Both the position numbers and the translations under genes were made by a program. 64,000 bases of DNA, from the NCBI RefSeq assembly GCF_000374645.1, contig NZ_KB894800.1, forward strand, positions 354,589 through 418,588, written 5' to 3'. Source of the stretch: Arhodomonas aquaeolei DSM 8974 (GTDB lineage: Bacteria; Pseudomonadota; Gammaproteobacteria; Nitrococcales; Nitrococcaceae). The notes under the pieces are model-generated. The model was not told the origin of the DNA. It made no database searches and saw nothing but the letters and a program-made list of their open reading frames with translations. This document shows, in pieces, positions 4,987-64,000 of this stretch; position 1 is the first letter of the stretch; each line of letters opens with the position of its first letter.

Positions 4987-6744
<1,758 letters not shown>

Positions 6745-54461: not shown

Positions 54462-54511
54462 TGGTGGCCAGGGAGAGAATCGAACTCCCGACACGGGGAT
54501 TTTCAATCCCC
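54462..54511 (-). repeat. Attachment site: 3' fragment of tRNA-Phe (GAA) including CCA
   Basis: Read on the minus strand this is the last 50 bases of a tRNA-Phe: anticodon arm GGGGATTGAAAATCCCC with anticodon GAA, variable loop GTGTC, a five-pair T arm around TTCGATT, acceptor strand CCTGGCC, discriminator A and encoded CCA. The 5' half (acceptor GGCCAGG and D arm) is missing: upstream sequence is unrelated. So this is not a working tRNA but an att repeat left by integration. The 5' half, with a restored 3' end, is expected at the far end of the element beyond the window. Confidence 0.9.
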
Positions 54512-54602
54512 TCAAGACCACTTTCAAAAGCTCCCGCCACAAGCGGCGTTTCCTCGAATAAACCCATAAACTCAGTAACTTATAATATGCCATTTGCCGC
54601 CA

Positions 54603-54664: not shown

Positions 54665-55885
54665 ATGCCGAACCTCACGGACGCCCGCATCCGCAAGATG
54701 GAACCGCCCGCGCGCGGCCGACGGCTGGTGTTCGACGAACACCGCGACGCGCCGAAAGGCTTCGGCCTGCGCATTACCGCTGCGGGCAAACGCGCATTCG
54801 TTCTCCGCTATCTCACGCACGATGGAAAAGACCGGCTCCTTACAATCGGCGAGCATCCGACCTGGAGCCTCGCGGCCGCGCGCAAGCGCGCGGCCGAGCT
54901 GCGCCGCGAGATCGACAGCGGCGCCGATGTGCTCGCGCAGCGGCGCGAGAAGCGTGCGGAGCCGACCGTCTCGGGGGTGGTGCAACGCTACTGCGCGGCT
55001 CACGTCGATCACCTGGCCAGCGCGACGAGCGTTCGCGGCACGCTTGAGCGGCACTTACTCCCGGCGCTCGGTGACAGGAAACTCCGCGACGTGCGGCGGC
55101 GTGACGTGATCGCGCTGCTGGAGCCGCTGGCCGCTGCCAAGCCACGTCAGGCCGGCAAGCTGCTCGGCTACCTCAAGCAAGTATTCGCCTACGCCGAGGA
55201 CCGGGAGATCATCGAGGCGTCGCCGATCGCGACGCTCAAGTCCAGCAAGATTGGCCCCGGGCTCACGGCCCGCCGGCGCGCGCGGGTGCTCACCGACGAC
55301 GAGCTACGCGCCTTCTGGCGGTGCGTCGAAACCTGCGGGATGCACCGCCTCACGGCCCTGGCGCTCAAGCTGGTGCTAATTACGGGCCAGCGCCCGGGCG
55401 AGGTGGCCGGGATGCGCCACGACGAGGTAGACGGCGACCTGTGGACCATCCCGGCGGAGCGGCGCGGCAAGACCGACACCGCCCACGTCGTGCCGCTCAC
55501 GGATACCGCCCTGGCGCTGCTGGAGGCCGCAAAGGCCGAGGTAAAACGGCTAAGCCGGCGCCACCCGCGAACCGGGGATTACGTCTTCGAGACCCGCCCC
55601 GGTAGTCCCCTCACCTCCTTAGCGGCCGCCCGCGCCGCCAACCGCTACGCCGCCGCCCTGGGTAACGAAGACGCCAAGACCTGGGGGCACTGGACACCGC
55701 ATGACCTGCGCCGCACCTGCCGTACCGGGCTCGCCGCCCTCGGCATCGGCGAGGTAGTGGCGGAAATGACTATCGGGCACGTCCGCAAGGGCATCGCCGC
55801 GGTCTATGACATGCACAGATACGACCGCGAAAAGCGTACCGCGCTAGAGGCGTGGGAGCGGCGGTTGCTCGAGCTCACCGCCTAG
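54665..55885 (+). CDS. int: P4-type tyrosine integrase
   Basis: 406 residues. The N-terminal DUF4102-type arm-binding domain has LTDARIRKMEPPARGRRLVFDE and RLLTIGEHPTWSLAAARKRA. The C-terminal catalytic domain shows Arg in LITGQRPGEVAGM, HDLRRT (His and second Arg), IGH and a C-terminal tyrosine in AVYDMHRYDREKRTALEAWE. Integrases of this group insert into tRNA 3' ends, consistent with the tRNA-Phe fragment 154 bases upstream. The ATG has only a weak CCGGA ribosome site. Confidence 0.96.
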   Translation: MPNLTDARIRKMEPPARGRRLVFDEHRDAPKGFGLRITAAGKRAFVLRYLTHDGKDRLLTIGEHPTWSLAAARKRAAELRREIDSGADVLAQRREKRAEPTVSGVVQRYCAAHVDHLASATSVRGTLERHLLPALGDRKLRDVRRRDVIALLEPLAAAKPRQAGKLLGYLKQVFAYAEDREIIEASPIATLKSSKIGPGLTARRRARVLTDDELRAFWRCVETCGMHRLTALALKLVLITGQRPGEVAGMRHDEVDGDLWTIPAERRGKTDTAHVVPLTDTALALLEAAKAEVKRLSRRHPRTGDYVFETRPGSPLTSLAAARAANRYAAALGNEDAKTWGHWTPHDLRRTCRTGLAALGIGEVVAEMTIGHVRKGIAAVYDMHRYDREKRTALEAWERRLLELTA

Positions 55886-56227
55886 ACCTACCGTTCATCG
55901 GGAAAAAACTACCGCTCGTCACGGCTCGGACCGCGACATCCCGCCCTATGCCCCGCACCGCACGCCATCGCATGGGTAAAAATGCGTGCAAAATCAGTCG
56001 GTGCAAATTCGATAATACTTTATTTGACACAAGCCACTGATTTTGCGCGGTTTTCCGGTGGCGTGGTACTCATGTGGTCATCGTGAGCCACACGGAGTCC
56101 TCCCGAGCTATCGCCCGACATAGATACGCCCCGCCGGCGGCCACCGGCAGGGCGTAGGGGCACTCCCCATTTATCCCGTATCCACGCCAGCCCCGCAGGG
56201 CTGGCCTTGCAACCAAAGGAGTACCCG
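55886..56227. other. Regulatory spacer between int and the AlpA-like gene
   Basis: No gene was recognised in these 342 bases. GCAAAATCAGT (55988-55998) is repeated in inverse as ACTGATTTTGC (56036-56046) around an AT-rich core with TAATAC and TTGACA. Two hairpins follow: a 12-pair stem with one mismatch at 56125-56156, and CCAGCCC/GGGCTGG at 56187-56204 just before the ribosome site of the next gene. Confidence 0.55.
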
Positions 56228-56467
56228 ATGCCACAGTATGACAGCCGCATCGGCACGTCCACCTCGCGCACCGTGCTGACGCAGGCCGAAGCCGCAGACT
56301 ACCTGCGCGTGACTCGACGCACGCTGTACCGCTGGCGGCATGAGCGCCGCGGTCCGCGATGGACGTATGCCGGTCGTCAGATCCGCTACCGGCGCACCGA
56401 TCTCGACTCGTACCTCGACGCCCGCACTGCCGAGCCGGTCGCCGATGGCGACCAGGAGGCGCGGTGA
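56228..56467 (+). CDS. AlpA/excisionase-like helix-turn-helix protein
   Basis: 79 residues. VLTQAEAADYLRVTRRTLYRWRHERRGPRWTYAGRQIRYRRTDLDSYL is a MerR-like winged helix of the HTH_17/excisionase type. Such proteins act as recombination directionality factors or as regulators of integrase and replication genes. AAAGGAG lies seven bases upstream of the ATG. Its stop overlaps the next start as TGATG, so it is the first gene of the replication operon. Confidence 0.87.
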   Translation: MPQYDSRIGTSTSRTVLTQAEAADYLRVTRRTLYRWRHERRGPRWTYAGRQIRYRRTDLDSYLDARTAEPVADGDQEAR

Positions 56468-56928
56468 TGCCGACGACCGATGCACCGATCGACCGCCTGC
56501 TCGCGCAGCTCGATGCCGTCCGCGGGCGCGGCGAGGGGCGCTGGATCGCCCGCTGCCCGGCGCACGATGACCGTACCCCCTCCCTCGCGGTCGCCGAGGC
56601 CGAAGACGGCGTGATCCTGGTCCGCTGCCATGCCGGCTGCGGGGCGGCGGACGTGGTGGCCGCAGCGGGTATGACCCTCGCGGACCTGTTTCCGCGCCGC
56701 GTCCGGCGCGGCGGCCGCGGGCCGCGGCGGGCGGATGCGCGCCGGCTCCCGCGGCCGTCTGCGGCCGAGATGCTGGCCGCGGTCGGCGGCGAGGCCGCGG
56801 TCGTCGCGCTCGCGGCCTCCGACCTCGCCGCCGGGCGGGCGCTCGGCGGCGATGACTACGCCCGCGTGATGCGCGCGGCGGCGACGCTCCGGCGGGCGGC
56901 GGATGCCGCCGGGAGGCGTCAGGCATGA
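56467..56928 (+). CDS. Free-standing CHC2-type primase zinc-finger protein
   Basis: 153 residues. ARCPAHDDRTPSLAVAEAEDG and VRCHAGCGAADVVAAAGMTLADLF make a complete CHC2 zinc-binding domain as found at the N terminus of DnaG-type primases. No TOPRIM catalytic domain follows; the C-terminal 80 residues are Arg/Ala-rich helices. It may guide priming at the element's origin or recruit the host primase. It is coupled on both sides (TGATG and ATGA). Confidence 0.78.
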   Translation: MPTTDAPIDRLLAQLDAVRGRGEGRWIARCPAHDDRTPSLAVAEAEDGVILVRCHAGCGAADVVAAAGMTLADLFPRRVRRGGRGPRRADARRLPRPSAAEMLAAVGGEAAVVALAASDLAAGRALGGDDYARVMRAAATLRRAADAAGRRQA

Positions 56929-57959
56929 CGGCGTGGATCGACATGAGCGACGACCTCTCGCGCGAGGCGCCGCCGATCGACTGGATCGTCGAGGGGCTGC
57001 TGCCGGCCGGCGCGGTCGGCGACATCTACGGCGCGCCGGGCGGCGGCAAGTCGACGCTCGCGCTGCACCTCGCGGCCCACGTCGCGGCGGGGCGGCGGAC
57101 CTGGTTCCGCCGCCGGCTCGCTGGCGGCCCCGTGCTCCTCGTCGGCGGCGAGCGCAGCGGCAGTGCGGTGTGGGCGCGCGATATGCACCGTACTGCCGGC
57201 ATGGCCGGCATCACGCCCGACGAGCTCCGCGGGCGGGCGCTGCGCGCGCCCGCAGACCTCGGCCCGCTATGGGCCTGGGATCGCCGCGAGGGCACGTGGC
57301 TCGGCGGCGAGGCACTAGCCGCGGTCCACGAGCAGGCCGCGGCGGTGCGGCCGGCGCTGATCATCATGGATACCATCGGCCGCGTCGCTCGCGGCCAGGA
57401 CCCGCTCGATATCGCGCAGCAGCAGCAGCTCGCCGAGCGTATCGAGGCGCTCGGAGCGGCGACCGGGGCGGCGGTGCTATCAGTTTCGCACACGTCCCAG
57501 GCGGCGCGGCTCGAGCGCCTCGATCGACGGCTCCGCTACGAGGCCCGCAGCGGCAGCAGCGGGCTGCCTGGGCACCTCCGCTGGCTCCTCGGCGTCACCC
57601 GTATCCCGCCAGATGAGGCGGAGCAGATCGGGCTCGACCCGCGCGGCGGGCGACTGATCGCGGGCGGCGTCGGCAAGGGGTCGGAGATGCCGCCGGCGGC
57701 GTGGACGCCGGACGCGCCGGCGATCCTGCGGATCGGCCGCGACGGCGCCGTCGAGCTGGTCCGCGACGGCGAGGAGGTGAGCGCGGACGGCGGGATCGCG
57801 GCCATGCTCCGGGGCGACAGCAGCGCCAGGCAGCGGCGCGGGACACGTCGATATGCAGCGGCGAGCCAGCCGGCGTCGGTGGGCCGCGCCGGCCGGGACT
57901 ACGACACGCCGGCGGACGCGATGGCGGCGATCCGCGCCGGACTGCCGGGGGCGCGATGA
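56925..57959 (+). CDS. repA: RepA-like hexameric replicative helicase
   Basis: 344 residues. IYGAPGGGKST at 35-45 is Walker A; PALIIMDTIGRV near 144-155 is Walker B; LSVSHTSQAA near 183-192 matches the sensor histidine segment. The N-terminal DWIVEGLLPAGAVGDIYG and overall RecA-fold order resemble RepA of IncQ plasmid RSF1010 and related plasmid/phage helicases. It probably unwinds DNA at the origin next to repC. Confidence 0.82.
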   Translation: MTAWIDMSDDLSREAPPIDWIVEGLLPAGAVGDIYGAPGGGKSTLALHLAAHVAAGRRTWFRRRLAGGPVLLVGGERSGSAVWARDMHRTAGMAGITPDELRGRALRAPADLGPLWAWDRREGTWLGGEALAAVHEQAAAVRPALIIMDTIGRVARGQDPLDIAQQQQLAERIEALGAATGAAVLSVSHTSQAARLERLDRRLRYEARSGSSGLPGHLRWLLGVTRIPPDEAEQIGLDPRGGRLIAGGVGKGSEMPPAAWTPDAPAILRIGRDGAVELVRDGEEVSADGGIAAMLRGDSSARQRRGTRRYAAASQPASVGRAGRDYDTPADAMAAIRAGLPGAR

Positions 57960-58696
57960 GCAGGCGCGACCGCGACGTGACTACCGCGTATCAGTCCCGC
58001 ATCCCCATCTTCGCCGCCACCCGCCGCCCGCGGCGGGTGGCGGCGGAAGAAGTAGAGACCCCATGGGGACGAGCGACGATCACCGGCCGGCTCGGCCAGG
58101 GCCACCGCGACCTGCTCGAGGCCGCGATGTACATCGCGGCGGGCGCCGGAGTCGATGCCGAGGGCCGAGCACGGATCACGATCGACCCCTATCGCCTGCG
58201 CCGGACGATGGGCGCCGGGACGCGAGACGTGAGCTACCGGCACATACTCGGACTCGCGCGTGACCTGCGCGCGGCCGAGGTCGATCTGCACATCCCCGCG
58301 CGCGATATCCATGTCTACGGCGGGGTCATCGACGAGCTAGTGACCGCCGGCGATCCCATTGCGCGCCGCGCTGGCACCCGTGGCGGCGACGGCATGACCT
58401 GGCGCATCACCTTCTCGCGCGCCTGGTCGATGCTGCTAGCCGCGGACATCCCCATCGCCTATCCATCGCTCCGCGCCGTGCTCCGCCTGCGCCGCGGCGC
58501 GACCCAGGCGGTCGCCCGGTGGGCGCTGACCCACCGGTGCGTCCGCGGCGAGGCCATCGCGGACGTCCTCCGGCGCCTCACGCCGAGCAGCAGCCCGGCG
58601 CGTCGCCGGCAGCAGGTCGCCGAGGTGCTCGCCGACGCGGACGCGCTCGCGGATGCCGGGGTGACCATCGATGCGGGCGGGCGGGTGTGGGTGTGA
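57956..58696 (+). CDS. repC: RepC-like iteron-binding replication initiator (putative)
   Basis: 246 residues. The helical layout (RLGQGHRDLLEAAMYIA, SYRHILGLARDLRAAEVDL, GATQAVARWALTHRCVRGE and RRRQQVAEVLADADALADAG) follows the tandem winged-helix plan of IncQ RepC and similar initiators, though identity is low and no single motif proves it. Context is strong: it is coupled by ATGA to the repA-like gene, and four iterons begin two bases after its stop codon. Confidence 0.68.
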   Translation: MSRRDRDVTTAYQSRIPIFAATRRPRRVAAEEVETPWGRATITGRLGQGHRDLLEAAMYIAAGAGVDAEGRARITIDPYRLRRTMGAGTRDVSYRHILGLARDLRAAEVDLHIPARDIHVYGGVIDELVTAGDPIARRAGTRGGDGMTWRITFSRAWSMLLAADIPIAYPSLRAVLRLRRGATQAVARWALTHRCVRGEAIADVLRRLTPSSSPARRRQQVAEVLADADALADAGVTIDAGGRVWV

Positions 58697-58698
58697 CA

Positions 58699-58774
58699 CA
58701 TATACCCGGTGGGCGAACACATATACCCGGTGGCGTGCTCCATATACCCGGTGCTGTGACGCATATACCCGGTG
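58699..58774 (+). repeat. Four iterons at an exact 21-bp period
   Basis: The 13-base core CATATACCCGGTG occurs without a mismatch at 58699, 58720, 58741 and 58762. The 21-bp period places every copy on the same helical face, as in plasmid origins bound by RepC/TrfA-type initiators. Confidence 0.92.
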
Positions 58775-58777
58775 GCG

Positions 58778-58810
58778 TCAGGCCTGTCAGGCCGATCAGG
58801 CCTATCAGGC
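58778..58810 (+). repeat. Four TCAGGC repeats at a 9-bp period
   Basis: TCAGGC begins at 58778, 58787, 58796 and 58805; the first three continue as TCAGGCC. The ladder starts four bases after the last iteron, and its last copy forms the arm of a hairpin with GCCTGA further on. Confidence 0.85.
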
Positions 58811-58815
58811 GGGGC

Positions 58816-58854
58816 GCGCCCAGCGCCCCCGCCTGATGGCGGGGCGCTGGGCGC
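58816..58854. repeat. Large GC-rich hairpin in the origin region
   Basis: The left arm 58816-58833 pairs with the right arm 58838-58854 (17 pairs, one bulged C) around TGAT. The left arm can instead pair with 58804-58817, so two mutually exclusive hairpins are possible. It resembles single-strand initiation hairpins of IncQ origins in kind, not in sequence. Confidence 0.7.
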
Positions 58855-58864
58855 TATGTTACCT

Positions 58865-58888
58865 CGGCGGCGCGACGCCGCGCCGCCG
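58865..58888. repeat. Perfect 10-bp hairpin in the origin region
   Basis: CGGCGGCGCG and CGCGCCGCCG pair perfectly around ACGC, 10 bases after the larger hairpin. Confidence 0.75.
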
Positions 58889-59013
58889 GGATCGCCCCGG
58901 GGGAGAGTGGCCGGGCGAGATGGACGTGAGGGCGGTGCGCCACCCTATCTCCCATCTCCTATCCCCACCGCCTCACGTCGTCGGCGGCGGCGCGCTCGCC
59001 CCGGCGCTAGGCC

Positions 59014-59035: not shown

Positions 59036-59182
59036 GCGGCACTGCCTTCCCTTCTGTCCTTTTCACCCGCCTTTTGTCAAATTCGTTGACCTTATTTTTG
59101 TCGCTAAAACAGTGACTTGCGACTCGTATCCGCATCGTGTACCTTTACCTCCATGGGTTTTCACACCCGACGCACCTATGGT

Positions 59183-59225
59183 GGCTATAGATCGGTTTTT
59201 TGGGCGTTTTCCGGTGAAAAAATCG
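59183..59225 (-). other. Candidate oriT: nic-like TCTATAGCC with adjacent inverted repeat
   Basis: On the minus strand TCTATAGCC (59183-59191) equals the nic core recalled for plasmid R388 (TCT/ATAGCC). Immediately 5' of it on that strand lies an inverted repeat, CGATTTTTT (59217-59225) and AAAAAACCG (59193-59201), with one mismatch, ending four bases before the presumed nick. The polarity would send the transfer genes in last, as expected. Confidence 0.45.
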
Positions 59226-59354
59226 GTTCGAGTATCTGAGAAAAATGGTTTATAAACAGTAATATATGTGACCATGATGGCGATGCGAACCGCTTCCGGT
59301 TCTACGTTTCACAAACCCGCCGTTTTTCATGGCCTATACGACCCGGGAGGGCCT

Positions 59355-60356
59355 ATGCGAGATGACCAGTATGAGGAGCACACGAGCGTGCAGGTGCACG
59401 TCGATGCCGGTATCCGCACGTCGCCGGCAGGCAACGGCATGCGGCCGATCGAGCTCCCCTGCCGGATACGGCGATGGCGCGATACGGGACGCGTCGCGAT
59501 GGAGTATCTGGACACCGATGGCGGCACCGTGCCCTGCGGTGCCGCTACACGCGCGGGTGTCCACGGCCGTGGCGTGAAACACACGCTGATCAATTCCCGC
59601 GCAATCGGCCGATCGCGGACGGTCGATGACGTAGTGGCGGCTGTGGCCAATCAGGCTGGCACCGTCGTCCCCTGTACGCTCGCCGGGGACGGCCCATCAG
59701 ACCGCAGTTGCCGGGTGCGCATCCGCGCACGCACGGGCGATGGGAAGACCGTGCACCACACCTACACCGTGCCCGCCTCCCAGCTGAGACAAGCCGATGA
59801 CGGCAGCTGGTGGTTGGCGAGCTGGGTCGCTCGCGAGCGCCTGGACACGTATACGGACCGCGCCGAGGAGCCCATTGATGAGCGTCCGTGGCTCGGGACC
59901 GAGGCCCTCCGGCGCCAGCTCCATGCGCAGGTCGAGGCCATCCGGCACGAGGAAGCCGAGGCTGCAGAGGCGGAGCGACAGCGCCGCGAGAAGGCTGAGG
60001 CCAAGGCCAAGGCCAAGCGCGAAGAAGCCAGACGTCAGCGCGAGCGGGACCGCGAGGCGGCGCCCGAGCCGAAGCCGGATCCGGAAACCGAGCGGGAGAA
60101 GGAGAACGAGAAGTGGCGTAAAATACTGATTAGATTGGAAAAAAGAGAGAATGTGGCGGTACGGATCTACGGCTGGCGGCCCAGCGGTAGTGGCTACTAC
60201 ACGCGCACCCAGGAGGATGTCCCCGCTTGTGATCTCTATTACACCGCCTCCGGTAAAAGCGTCTACATCGTGGAGGACGACGATTACGTTGGATGCCGGC
60301 GTAAAGCGCTGACCAACGTGGAGATCCTGGGGGCGGCAGAGGGGGCCGAACAGTGA
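59355..60356 (+). CDS. Unknown element-encoded protein with charged coiled coil
   Basis: 333 residues from an ATG with GGGAGGG just upstream. I do not recognise a family. Residues to about 190 are a mixed alpha/beta region (YLDTDGGTVPCGAATRAG, HHTYTVPASQLRQADDGSWWLASW); a long highly charged helix follows (about 200-265, rich in E, A, K and R, e.g. RREKAEAKAKAKREEARRQR), then a short C-terminal domain with YYTRTQEDVPACDLYYTASG. It lies between the candidate oriT and the trwA-like gene and is coupled to it by GTGA, so a role in transfer-complex assembly is plausible. Confidence 0.7.
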   Translation: MRDDQYEEHTSVQVHVDAGIRTSPAGNGMRPIELPCRIRRWRDTGRVAMEYLDTDGGTVPCGAATRAGVHGRGVKHTLINSRAIGRSRTVDDVVAAVANQAGTVVPCTLAGDGPSDRSCRVRIRARTGDGKTVHHTYTVPASQLRQADDGSWWLASWVARERLDTYTDRAEEPIDERPWLGTEALRRQLHAQVEAIRHEEAEAAEAERQRREKAEAKAKAKREEARRQRERDREAAPEPKPDPETEREKENEKWRKILIRLEKRENVAVRIYGWRPSGSGYYTRTQEDVPACDLYYTASGKSVYIVEDDDYVGCRRKALTNVEILGAAEGAEQ

Positions 60357-60619
60357 GAGCCATCACCATCCGTCTGCCGGACGCCAGCCACGCCACCCTC
60401 TCCCGCGCCGCCCGGCGCGGGGGGATCTCGCTCGGTGCCGCCGCCCGGGAGGTCATCGCCAGCGGCCTGGCCGTCGATGATATCGGCGATCGGATCGCGC
60501 AGCTCGACCACCGCCTGGCGCGCATCGAGCAGCGGTTCGATCAGCTATTCGCGACCGTAGAGGTAGAGATCGTCAGCGAGGACGACCAAGGAGGGACCGG
60601 CGATGGCCGCACCCCCTGA
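60353..60619 (+). CDS. Small ribbon-helix-helix protein, TrwA-like accessory factor
   Basis: 88 residues from a GTG that overlaps the previous stop (GTGA). MRAITIRLPDASHATLSRAARRGG is a ribbon-helix-helix start, and DRIAQLDHRLARIEQRFDQLF is a coiled coil that could give a tetramer. By position (directly before the coupling ATPase and MobF relaxase) it matches TrwA of R388, which binds oriT and stimulates relaxase and ATPase. Its C terminus overlaps the next gene by 17 bases. Confidence 0.72.
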   Translation: MRAITIRLPDASHATLSRAARRGGISLGAAAREVIASGLAVDDIGDRIAQLDHRLARIEQRFDQLFATVEVEIVSEDDQGGTGDGRTP

Positions 60620-62705
60620 TTCCCGGGACTGGGCGCGCACCCTCGCCGCTGGGGGCATCCTCGGCGTCATCGGGGGCGGGGTCCTGGCCCTCGCCGCGGT
60701 GGTCGCCATCGGGACGATATGGAGCGGCACGCCGGCCGATGACCTGATCCGCGCCACCCTGTCGGCGGCGATACCCCCCATCCTCGCCGACGCCCTGCGT
60801 CTGCCTCTCTCACCGATCGCCGCCGACTGGCTCTCCCGCGCGGCCCCAGGCTGGCAGGGGGTCGCCGTTGCCGGCGCCGCACTCGGCGTGGCCGCCGGTG
60901 CCACCCTCGGGGGCGTGGCCGGCGCACCGCGCCCACCCGTCACGGAGCGGGGGCGTATCGTCACCCGTGGTGCCCGTGCCGCGGCCGCGGAGAGCCGGCG
61001 GGAGTCCCGGCATGCCGGCGGTCCGGGGGTACACATCCATCCCGAGGTGCGCATCAGTCGGGATCGCGAGACCCGCGGCATCATGCTCTCGGGCTCGGTA
61101 GGCGCCGGAAAAACCGTGATACTGCAGCATCTTATCGGCGATATCCTGGCGAACCCATCCGCGCGACTTCTCATCCACGATATTAAGGGCGATTTCACGG
61201 CCACGGTCCCCGGGCTGATGCGCGAGGCCGGTGGCGGCCTCGGCCTGATCGCGCCCTGGGACGCGCGCTCGATGCGCTGGTCGGTAGCCGCCGATATCCG
61301 CTCCTCGGCCGACGCGCGCGAACTCGCTTCCCGCCTCATCCCCTCCGGTGAGGCCGACGGTACGGATAGCCACTGGACGCAAGGGGCGGCGATGATCCTC
61401 GGCGGCCTCATCGTCTCGCTCGCCCGCCGCACCCGCGGGCAATGGGGCTGGCGCGAGCTCGTGGCCGAGATCGGCCAGTCCTATCCGCAGCTGCGCGAAG
61501 CGGCCATCGCCGGCGCTCCGGCAACCGAGGCCCTGCTCACCCACCGGGAGCCGAGTCCCACCACCGCGAGCTACCTCTCGCTGCTGACATCCTCCGCCGG
61601 TGGATTGATCTCGGATCTGGCGGCCGCGGACGCCGAGCATGCGCGGCATCGACCCTTCTCCGCCCGGCAGTGGCTACGAGGCCATGGACCCCGCGTGGTG
61701 ATCCTCGGCGGGTCCACCCGGTACGCCACCCTCGCCACGGCGCTGCACAGCTCCATCGTGCGTGCCATTGCCGGGGGGCTGGATGCCCTCGAGGACGACC
61801 CCGAGCGACGGATTTGGCTCGTCCTGGATGAGGCGGCGCAGCTGGGCCGAGTGGACCTGCAGCCGATCGTCGAGACGGGTCGGTCGAAGGGCGTCTGCGT
61901 GGTCACGGGCTGGCAGGACGTCGCCCAGCGCCGCAAGATATACGGCGCCGACGCGGCAGCGGCAATGGACGGGATGACCGGTACCCACATTATCGGCCGG
62001 CTGCTCGGGGCCGACTCGCAGCAGTGGGCCGCGCAAATGGTGGGGCAGCGCCGGGTACGGCGCTACACCACCTCCTATGGTGCCGATGGGCGCTCGGTGA
62101 GCGAGCAGGTTGGCGATGAGGCGGTCATCCCACCGGACGAGTGGGGTGGACTCGGCCGGGTGCGCGACGGTATCGAGGCCGTGCTGATCCGCGGCGGTCG
62201 CACCGTGCACCGCGTGGTCTGGCCGTTTCCCGACCGCCGCCAATGGCGCAAGGTGACACCGCCCCATCGCCCGGCGGCCTGGACCGATACCCTCCAGACT
62301 GCACCGACGCCCTCGGGCGGTGACAGCGACCCGGATCCCACGGCGTCACCGCGCCCGGCAGCGGAATCGGCCCCTTCCCACCGCCCGGCCCCGGAGGGTG
62401 GGGATCACGGCTCCCCGCCGGCGGCCGAGGCCCGCGCGGCTCAGGAGGATCGCACCGGTGGCGGTTCGCGCAGCGGCGAAGCCGGAAAGCCGTCCGGCAG
62501 AGCGGGGCCCGCAGCACCGCACGACGGGAATGCCGCCTCCGGGAGCGGAGCGATTAAGGTTCCGGAGGAGCCGGCGATGGCCCCGGAGATCCCGGCGCAT
62601 ACCCAGGGGCCCGACACCGGTGACACCACGCCCCGGCCGCGCCGACGGCTGGTCATCCGCCGTCCGCGCGGGGACGGCGCCGGCCCCGAGCGGGACGATC
62701 GCTGA
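60603..62705 (+). CDS. Type IV coupling protein (TrwB/TraD-like)
   Basis: 700 residues. Two N-terminal membrane helices (about 13-39 and 83-107), Walker A GSVGAGKT at 164-171, and Walker B in RIWLVLDEAAQLG; GRSKGVCVVTGWQDVAQ follows as in TrwB. The C-terminal 170 residues are Pro/Ala/Gly-rich and probably disordered. It pumps the relaxase-DNA complex to a type IV secretion channel. AAGGAGGG precedes the ATG. Its stop overlaps the relaxase start as TGATG. Confidence 0.93.
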   Translation: MAAPPDSRDWARTLAAGGILGVIGGGVLALAAVVAIGTIWSGTPADDLIRATLSAAIPPILADALRLPLSPIAADWLSRAAPGWQGVAVAGAALGVAAGATLGGVAGAPRPPVTERGRIVTRGARAAAAESRRESRHAGGPGVHIHPEVRISRDRETRGIMLSGSVGAGKTVILQHLIGDILANPSARLLIHDIKGDFTATVPGLMREAGGGLGLIAPWDARSMRWSVAADIRSSADARELASRLIPSGEADGTDSHWTQGAAMILGGLIVSLARRTRGQWGWRELVAEIGQSYPQLREAAIAGAPATEALLTHREPSPTTASYLSLLTSSAGGLISDLAAADAEHARHRPFSARQWLRGHGPRVVILGGSTRYATLATALHSSIVRAIAGGLDALEDDPERRIWLVLDEAAQLGRVDLQPIVETGRSKGVCVVTGWQDVAQRRKIYGADAAAAMDGMTGTHIIGRLLGADSQQWAAQMVGQRRVRRYTTSYGADGRSVSEQVGDEAVIPPDEWGGLGRVRDGIEAVLIRGGRTVHRVVWPFPDRRQWRKVTPPHRPAAWTDTLQTAPTPSGGDSDPDPTASPRPAAESAPSHRPAPEGGDHGSPPAAEARAAQEDRTGGGSRSGEAGKPSGRAGPAAPHDGNAASGSGAIKVPEEPAMAPEIPAHTQGPDTGDTTPRPRRRLVIRRPRGDGAGPERDDR

Positions 62706-64000
62706 TGCTCTCGATCTCCGCGCGCGGATCCGCCACCGAGGCCATGGGCTACTACGTCCATCTCGCCGCCGGCGACGGCCCGGAGGACTACTACGCCGCC
62801 GAGGCCGCGGGGGTCTGGCAGGGCGCCGGGGCCGCCGCCCTGGGCCTCGCCGGTCCGGTCACCGGCGAGGCCTTCCGGAGCGCGGCGGAGGGGTGCGCGC
62901 CGGACGGAGCGGCCCTGGTGCAGGGCACCGGTGAGGCGCACCGCGCCGGCTGGGACCTCACCTTCTCGGCGCCGAAGTCGGTATCCGCGATCTGGGCCGT
63001 CGCCGATCCCACCGAGCGCACCGCCATCGCCGACGCTCACGACCAGGCGGTGCAGCAGGCCCTCGCCTACATCGAGTCCGGCTTCCCCCTGGCCCGCCGG
63101 GGCCGCGGCGGCCTCGAGCGGGAGCGGGCAGGGCTGGTGATCGCCACCTATCAGCACGGCACCTCCCGGGCCCTGGACCCGCAGCTGCACACGCATGCGT
63201 TTCTCCACAATCTCGCGCAGCGCGCCGATGGCACCTGGGGCGGCCTGGAAGTGCGTGATCTCTATCGGTGGAAACACGCGCTGGGGGCGATCTACCGGGC
63301 GGCGCTCGCCGCGGAGCTCGCCGCACAGGGCTACGCCATTGCCGCCGATGGCCCCTCCTTCGCCATCGCCGGCGTACCGGAGGCGGTGACCGACCGGTTC
63401 TCGACGAGACGCCAGCAGATCGAGGCCGCCCTTGCCGAGCGCGGTATCTCCGGGGCGAAGGCCAGCGAGGTCGCCGCGCTGGACACGCGGGCCGCGAAGA
63501 CCGAGATCCCGGACCACGACACCCTGCACGCCCGCTGGACGACGGAGGCCCAGGCCGCCGGTTTCACCCCCGCGGACGCCCATGGCGCCGCCGCCGCGGC
63601 CCCGTCACCGGAGCCCATGCCGACGCCAGAGACGTTGCTCCGGCAGGCCACCGAGCACGAGGCGGTCATCGAGACACGCCATATCTGGCAGGCCGTGGCC
63701 GTCGCCGCCCAGCACCGCGGCCTCGGCCTCGACACCATCCGCGAGCAGGTCGGCGTGGTACTCAGCGATCCGGAGTGCCTGCGCCTGGTCGGTGCCGACG
63801 GGACCGTCCGCTACACCACCCGCGAGCTCTACCGGATGGAGCGTGCGGTGATGGCCTCGGCGCGGGCGCGGGCCGCCGAGACCCACCACGCCGTCGACGC
63901 CGCGACGGTGACCATCGCGCTCGCCCGCCACGCCAGAGAGGAGGGATTTCCGCTCAGTGACGAGCAGGCCGCGGCGGTGCGCCATGTAACCGCCGCCCCC
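62705..64000 (+). CDS. MobF-family relaxase (TrwC/TraI-like), 3' end outside window
   Basis: 432 residues are visible and the frame is still open at 64000. Catalytic tyrosine pairs are at 16-17 (GYY) and 29-30 (DYY); WQGAGAAALGL and WDLTFSAPKSVSAIWA are family marks; the HUH metal histidines are His151 and the HTH at 162-164 in DPQLHTHAFLHN. The last visible residues (LSDEQAAAVRHVT) are the start of the RecD-like helicase domain, so this is the full relaxase-helicase type. It nicks oriT and leads the strand into the recipient. Confidence 0.95.
   Translation, partial: MLSISARGSATEAMGYYVHLAAGDGPEDYYAAEAAGVWQGAGAAALGLAGPVTGEAFRSAAEGCAPDGAALVQGTGEAHRAGWDLTFSAPKSVSAIWAVADPTERTAIADAHDQAVQQALAYIESGFPLARRGRGGLERERAGLVIATYQHGTSRALDPQLHTHAFLHNLAQRADGTWGGLEVRDLYRWKHALGAIYRAALAAELAAQGYAIAADGPSFAIAGVPEAVTDRFSTRRQQIEAALAERGISGAKASEVAALDTRAAKTEIPDHDTLHARWTTEAQAAGFTPADAHGAAAAAPSPEPMPTPETLLRQATEHEAVIETRHIWQAVAVAAQHRGLGLDTIREQVGVVLSDPECLRLVGADGTVRYTTRELYRMERAVMASARARAAETHHAVDAATVTIALARHAREEGFPLSDEQAAAVRHVTAAP

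Follow-up and report, generated by a model that had tools for sequence, protein, structure and literature searches.

Tandem iterons behind a repC-type gene mark a probable IncQ-like replication origin in an integrated element of Arhodomonas aquaeolei

We found that four exact tandem repeats with a period of 21 bp, directly behind a putative initiator gene of Arhodomonas aquaeolei DSM 8974, are best read as iterons belonging to an IncQ-like origin of replication that lies in an integrated mobilizable element and would be served by the adjacent RepC, a reading to which we give a probability of about 0.82. Such an origin would most likely be used by the excised circle. The stretch of DNA analyzed here, referred to as the window, is 64,000 nucleotides long, and positions without a prefix refer to it. 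We regard this as the best explanation because of the integration of the element, the gene order, the predicted fold of RepC, the conserved repC-iteron pair, the co-variation of its two members, and a cassette exchange between plasmids, as computed here.

Exact copies of the core CATATACCCGGTG start at 58699, 58720, 58741, and 58762 (array at 58699-58774, + strand, by exact-copy search of the window and the genome) and keep a register of 21 bp, and because the stop codon TGA of the upstream gene (57956-58696) occupies 58694-58696, the first core follows after a gap of 2 bases. The original prediction had described four perfect copies on the same helical face, two bases past a repC-like stop, and it holds on each of these points. 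Across the genome (3.96 Mb in 48 contigs), this 13-mer has no occurrences other than the four of the array. When up to 3 mismatches were allowed, the window contained 16 matches versus 10.6 expected, and 7 of 100 shuffles reached 16; what stands out is therefore the set of exact tandem copies alone.

The array belongs to a probable mobilizable element of about 29 kb that, as read from the sequence, is integrated at a tRNA-Phe gene. Identical 51-bp direct repeats lie 29,074 bp apart, one at 54462-54512 (attL) and the other beyond the window at C1:438124-438174 (attR), where it makes up the 3' portion of an intact tRNA-Phe gene, and the near copy is adjoined by a tyrosine integrase gene (54665-55885, + strand; Pfam Phage_integrase, E 3e-20; Arm-DNA-bind_3, E 6e-18). 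That the DNA is an integrated element had been supposed beforehand, and the identical repeats, the intact tRNA-Phe gene at the far end, and the integrase at the near end bear this out. Downstream of the array, also on the + strand, are genes for a small ribbon-helix-helix-like protein that may be a relaxosome accessory protein or a regulator (60353-60619; FitA-like_RHH, E 0.001, and RHH_1, E 0.004, both below cut-off), a TraD/TrwB-type coupling protein (60603-62705; TrwB_AAD_bind, E 6e-55), and the start of a TrwC/MobF relaxase-helicase (62705-64000; TrwC, E 4e-81; NCBIfam MobF, E 4e-76), which has 903 aa in full and continues past the window (C1:417293-420004). The element has att repeats with an integrase, as expected of an integrative and mobilizable element, and also encodes a TrwC relaxase and a coupling protein; we therefore consider it to be integrated and probably mobilizable. 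Matches to the window initiator were sparse, with 1 of 54 genomes in the order (its own genome), 5 of 369 genomes in the class sample (including its own and the doubtful G145), and 3 of 398 genomes in the phylum sample (including its own and the doubtful G401), which fits horizontal acquisition. The matches in G145 (26%, within a 1326-aa frame) and G401 (E 8e-5, 57 positions) were set aside as probably unrelated.

Between the integrase and the array, all genes lie on the + strand. An AlpA/excisionase-like helix-turn-helix (HTH) protein (56207-56467; HTH_17, E 1e-14; excise domain, E 3e-10) is followed by a small CHC2 zinc-finger protein that resembles the N terminus of DnaG and phage primases (56467-56928; Zn_ribbon_DnaG, E 7e-4, below the Pfam cut-off; phrog_6088, a phage primase family, E 5e-14) and in which no primase catalytic domain was matched. 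The open reading frame of this protein is listed from 56359, and the start at 56467 is our choice. The next gene, whose start overlaps the preceding stop (ATGA), encodes RepA, an RSF1010-type helicase (56925-57959; AAA_25, E 1.6e-27), which matches the RSF1010-type RepA structure 1g8y over residues 12-255 with an E value of 8e-13 by phmmer. This link appears with phmmer; a tblastn search of plasmids with the window RepA at 1e-5 gave no match. The putative RepC-type initiator gene (57956-58696) in turn overlaps the repA stop, again by ATGA.

By sequence, the window RepC matched no family in Pfam, NCBIfam, or PHROG at E 1 and no PDB chain at E 10. Membership in the RepC family PF06504 was rejected, given that there was no Pfam hit at E 1, while the RepC of plasmid p14154B hits PF06504 at 1e-160, and no relationship between the window-type RepC and PF06504 RepC was found by blastp (with the RepC of plasmid pUL3AT) or by hhalign (with a 62-row alignment). 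An AlphaFold model was built on the 62-row alignment (pLDDT 81.7, pTM 0.81). Foldseek matched this model below E 0.001 to domains 2-3 of RctB and to nothing else (best E value, 1.8e-5), and these domains superimposed with a VIA Z of 13.2 and an rmsd of 4.3 over 212 residues. RepE54 structures, many of them with iteron DNA, gave Z 8.4-9.8, including 1rep, which contains iteron DNA, with Z 9.4 and an rmsd of 3.8 over 181 residues; the first row for a non-replication protein had Z 5.9, and dimeric RepE had only Z 5.3. RctB and RepE are tandem winged-helix iteron binders. The predicted model of the window RepC has the RepE/RctB arrangement, and the protein is thus probably an initiator with the fold of these iteron-binding initiators. 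In viral contigs, no occurrence of the window RepC was confirmed and a two-iteron pattern gave 0 matches, and no RepC of the pUL3AT type was found in phages.

Arrays of this kind are kept by most relatives of the locus. A scan of genome contigs with five relatives yielded at least 64 loci, a non-random sample, and these loci, the window, L007, and six plasmid loci make up a set of 72, in which L014 and L015, with identical accessions for RepA and RepC, are both counted. Four loci (L040, L089, L090, and L091) were too short to score, leaving 68 that could be evaluated. With an array defined by a tandem score of at least 28 of 42 within 500 bp around the end of repC, 59 of the 68 loci carry a tandem array at that place, with a period of 21 in 57 loci and periods of 20 and 22 in one locus each. 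The threshold was beyond all 1360 dinucleotide shuffles (3 reached 26), and none of 65 upstream control stretches reached 26 (L079, where the match starts at base 9, was left out). The 59 include L070, where the scored sequence is of low complexity rather than a set of iterons, and L042, whose unit is doubtful. Below the threshold and read by eye, copies are degenerate or spaced unevenly in five loci (L044, L072, L078, L082, and L087), a single copy is seen in each of L061 and L074, and none is visible in L081; in L014, the array spans the start of the record. Retention of the protein with loss of the repeats, which would have spoken against the original prediction, does not apply to most loci, the exceptions being L061 and L074, which retain one copy each, and L081, where no array is visible.

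The repC frame continues past the single iteron-like unit of L061 and of L074, and these loci are perhaps islands with a decayed origin. In L006/L029 and in L007, the repC frame reads through the array, so that the iterons encode a repeated peptide at the C terminus of the protein. The array sequences differ among loci; the majority unit over 56 loci is GCGTgnCaCAnCnGCCCGana, and the window unit agrees with the rotated family reference at 11 of 21 positions. RepA was matched in at least 56 of 71 loci with the window RepA as the query, a count that is a lower bound because the same query missed the RepA annotated in L013.

The repeat sequence tracks RepC more than it tracks RepA. Iteron distance and RepC distance are correlated (Mantel r 0.73, n = 56, p 0.0005), the set of 56 being the 57 loci at period 21 minus L011. 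Where RepA was matched (46 loci), the partial r of iterons with RepC given RepA is 0.66 and that of iterons with RepA given RepC is -0.29, values that carry no significance test and that control for RepA distance while otherwise retaining the relatedness of the loci. Both the arrays and their co-variation with RepC could have been inherited by linkage in elements that are past replicating.

Relatives of the window RepC occupy the place of repC in small IncQ-type plasmids, in Leptospirillum plasmids, and in chromosomal islands, and plasmids with this RepC are listed as circular records. A tblastn search with the window RepC found eight plasmids at E 0.01, four of which are 8.3-9.0 kb in size (pUL3AT, pPSKoxy4_4, KX946994, and MN180807); the others are pSMBC31-5K, a 5.2-kb Citrobacter plasmid, and two plasmids of Leptospirillum ferrooxidans. 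Of the four, pUL3AT and pPSKoxy4_4 were opened, and both carry the PLSDB type IncQ2. Read from base 6001, pUL3AT is 95.7% identical to p14154B over 2,237 bp, a stretch that comprises the end of a mob gene, a putative repB, and repA up to about 43 nucleotides before its stop (the mob and repB names in pUL3AT rest on gene place and on the accessible part of PMC7557826, and the repB product has weak Toprim matches at E 0.01). After the shared stretch, p14154B continues with a PF06504 RepC (E 1e-160), and elsewhere it has three iterons with 22-bp spacing, CCCCCACGGTAACTC, and no unit of the pUL3AT type, whereas pUL3AT continues with a window-type RepC and then four units of its own (spaced 21, 21, and 20), with no canonical units. 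A 104-bp hairpin-rich stretch (95%) near both iteron sets is common to the two plasmids. We read this pair from the sequence comparison as a natural cassette swap of repC together with its iterons, which provides a system for studying initiator-iteron specificity.

According to the accessible text of a 2020 paper on IncQ-3 plasmids, p435_c4, pJF-707 (KX946994), and pUL3AT lack repC, and it was proposed that RepC is supplied in trans or, more probably, is unnecessary (PMC7557826). Both pJF-707 and pUL3AT carry a window-type repC annotated as "ABC transporter ATPase," which that paper overlooked. A plasmid that shares its RepA and RepC accessions with pUL3AT carries the carbapenemase GES-5, and naming the repC of pUL3AT and pJF-707 matters for replicon typing. 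Three short contigs (L068, L075, and L079; 14.2, 15.0, and 4.8 kb) combine a window-type RepC with a relative of the pUL3AT repB product and are perhaps unrecognized plasmids of Vreelandella and Methyloprofundus. The Leptospirillum ferrooxidans plasmids p49879.1 and p49879.2 (L010 and L011; phylum Nitrospirota) resemble the window locus in a distantly related RepC-like protein (E 1e-15) and repeats at the gene end, but they are plasmids of about 28-29 kb, typed MOBQ, with repeats spaced 22, 31, and 21 bp in both, and the window RepA as the query found no RepA match in them.

The putative origin extends past 58699-58774. Four 9-bp TCAGG repeats, TCAGGNNNN, lie on the + strand at 58778-58813 (starts at 58778, 58787, 58796, and 58805), followed by a hairpin with perfect 14-bp arms (58816-58854), a second hairpin with 10-bp arms (58865-58888), and an AT-rich block (59041-59280) with a G+C content of 0.44 versus an average of 0.71 in the element's part of the window, where 2 of 930 windows of 240 bp are as low as 0.44. 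Single-strand folding of 58775-58900 gave a z of -7.35. In 45 of 68 loci, the 400 bp surrounding the end of repC contain a CAGG-N5/6-CAGG pair (9-10 bp spacing); among the controls, such a pair was present in 87 of 3400 sequences after mononucleotide shuffling and in none of 65 stretches upstream. In most relatives, the 9-bp repeats are CAGGATAT or nearly so, and those of the window are G+C rich; it is plausible that the CAGGATAT-like repeats serve as a melting element. The origin region of the window contains no exact DnaA box and one match with a mismatch.

The element also appears to do without the primase of IncQ plasmids. Within the 40 kb that hold it, phmmer at E 1e-5 found no relative of the pUL3AT RepB, and the relaxase-Toprim protein that the Citrobacter plasmid has of its own found no relative there either. 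Relatives of the pUL3AT repB product were found in 6 of the 72 loci, the plasmids L013-L015 and the contigs L068, L075, and L079, and therefore the window element and the loci flanked by guaA have, within the fetched flanks, a helicase and an initiator and no IncQ primase.

Comparison with known systems places the replicon close to IncQ. The accessible part of PMC7557826 gives iterons of 20-22 bp, hairpins, and G+C-rich and A+T-rich regions as the parts of an IncQ-3 oriV, and the window replicon has in common with IncQ plasmids, as described there, a helicase gene repA of the RSF1010 type ahead of repC, an array of iterons, hairpins or other palindromes, and G+C-rich and A+T-rich parts. Unlike IncQ plasmids, it has a RepC outside PF06504 by sequence and no RepB/RepB' primase was found in the element, and it is chromosomally integrated; because neither a PF06504 RepC nor RepB was found, it is not a classical IncQ replicon by strict features. 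Its shared RepA and origin layout mark it as a putative variant of a known replicon type, one that would work like IncQ. The experimental precedent is Salmonella genomic island 1 (SGI1), which, according to the accessible parts of two papers (PMC7433901 and PMC7826253), is likewise integrative and mobilizable and has, downstream of its initiator gene, four iterons that support replication; it differs in its Rep_3/IncN2-type Rep, its 16-17-bp iterons, and its trigger by an IncC helper, and those parts do not mention an IncQ-type RepA helicase. Plasmid pPDL2 of Sphingobium fuliginis likewise combines an integrase and attP with a working iteron-type oriV-repA replicon but is a plasmid with a Rep_3-type RepA, and an IncQ-type helicase goes unmentioned in the accessible part of the source (PMC3516476).

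A similar gene row is known from the guaA islands (GIsul2, IncP islands, and ICERspD18B): the accessible parts of PMC5704250, PMC9376610, and PMC7775301 place int, alpA, repA, and repC at guaA and describe no iterons. In the fetched flanks of our 72 loci, guaA was found near 29, a TrbJ relative near 30, and a TrbL relative near 28, and gene order suggests that the guaA-flanked loci are the guaA islands of this literature. They are likened to the window element by their gene row and not by RepC sequence, and they differ from it in integration site and transfer genes. The repA-repC pair of one guaA-type locus, L055, matched 66 of 5426 complete Escherichia coli genomes, at 64 chromosomal places and 2 plasmid places, with 31 matches covering at least 80% of the query. 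The one E. coli match that was opened (L093) has the order guaA, integrase, HTH, RepA, RepC, TraJ, TrbJ, and TrbL, with four units after repC as read by eye. For GIsul2, according to the accessible text of PMC9376610, the circular form required nested PCR at very low yield and integration persisted after deletion of alpA and repA/C, so a high copy number is not evident there. In a search that lay mostly outside the subscription literature, neither 21-bp iterons downstream of repC in guaA islands nor the window RepC family in pUL3AT had an earlier description, and a prior report is thus possible.

Our results lead us to propose how such an origin may work. The integrase would excise the element from tRNA-Phe, and RepC, with its predicted RepE/RctB fold, would be made from the zinc-finger-repA-repC gene row. 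It may then bind the four iterons on one face of the DNA, 21 bp being two turns, and open the adjacent region of 9-bp repeats, hairpins, and AT-rich DNA, where the RepA helicase would presumably load. The circle would thus copy itself before re-integration or transfer, and the origin is presumably silent while the element is integrated. As for priming, our guess is that host DnaG acts, either alone or with the small CHC2 zinc protein.

Binding to their own operators is common among iteron initiators, and the array might be nothing other than an operator for RepC, repressing the operon or marking the end of its transcript, in an element that never replicates alone and is a relic or a pure regulator. 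This common habit of initiators, the single copy left in the integrated relatives L061 and L074, and the missing pUL3AT-type RepB, both in the element and beside guaA, would agree with such a role. We nevertheless hold it to be unlikely, as the array lies after the gene and not at its promoter and is followed by an origin-like block of 9-bp repeats, hairpins, and AT-rich DNA, as the same repC-array pair occurs in small circular plasmids, and as two plasmids that are almost identical elsewhere have both a different repC and different iterons.

Integrase arm sites and parS-like sites can be tandem repeats as well, and genes for the ribbon-helix-helix protein, the coupling protein, and the relaxase begin 1.6 kb downstream, both of which would suit a partition, excision-accessory, or transfer (oriT) site. 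Such a site is quite improbable, given that the array sequence tracks RepC more than RepA, that the array stays with repC despite differing transfer genes (TrwC-type, TrbJ/TrbL-type, or plasmid mob), and that RepC has the predicted fold of an initiator. Functionless repetition, arising by chance or driven by coding, finds some footing in the repeated peptides that the repC frame gives through the arrays of L006/L029 and L007, but its probability is close to nil: the exact, genome-unique set and the failure of all 1360 shuffles to reach the threshold rule out chance, and the shuffles, the co-variation with RepC, and the single period shared by 57 of the 59 arrays despite their differing sequences rule out a coding cause. 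The IncQ-like origin is thus the reading we retain. The original prediction had taken the repeats as a latent plasmid origin and the protein upstream as its likely initiator, and both claims stand as far as sequence can carry them, on the predicted fold of the protein, the 59 of 68 evaluable relatives that score as keeping an array, the co-variation, and the joint difference of repC and iterons in plasmids.

More tentatively, and at somewhat less than even odds, we speculate that this RepC represents an unnamed initiator family (without a Pfam, NCBIfam, or PHROG model, in the members scanned) that, paired with 21-bp iterons and 9-bp repeats of its own, swaps as a cassette for IncQ RepC in plasmids and drives the replication of excised islands across Proteobacteria without the IncQ primase, presumably by way of host primase. 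If this is true, a common replicon has been overlooked, and many "islands" would be part-time plasmids. According to the accessible part of a 2017 review, the replication of excised mobilizable islands had never been studied (PMC5704250), and in the literature found here, again in the accessible parts, it has since been demonstrated for SGI1 (PMC7433901 and PMC7826253). The present locus offers a small, defined replicon, one gene row and about 600 bp, that is common to islands of other Proteobacteria.

Two further observations concern the gene content of these islands. In L093 (13748-14719, - strand) and in 23 loci of the set, a conserved protein of about 323 aa is encoded divergently from the HTH-repA-repC row of guaA islands; it has no significant family match and is possibly a regulator or a replication protein. 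The element of A. aquaeolei carries, beyond the window, a BREX set of BrxA, BrxB, BrxC, PglX, PglZ (type 1 B), and BrxL (C1:420807-437105; L016:12219-17103 and L017:2-8517), in which a PADLOC "Orf5"/SspE-like protein lies between PglX and PglZ.
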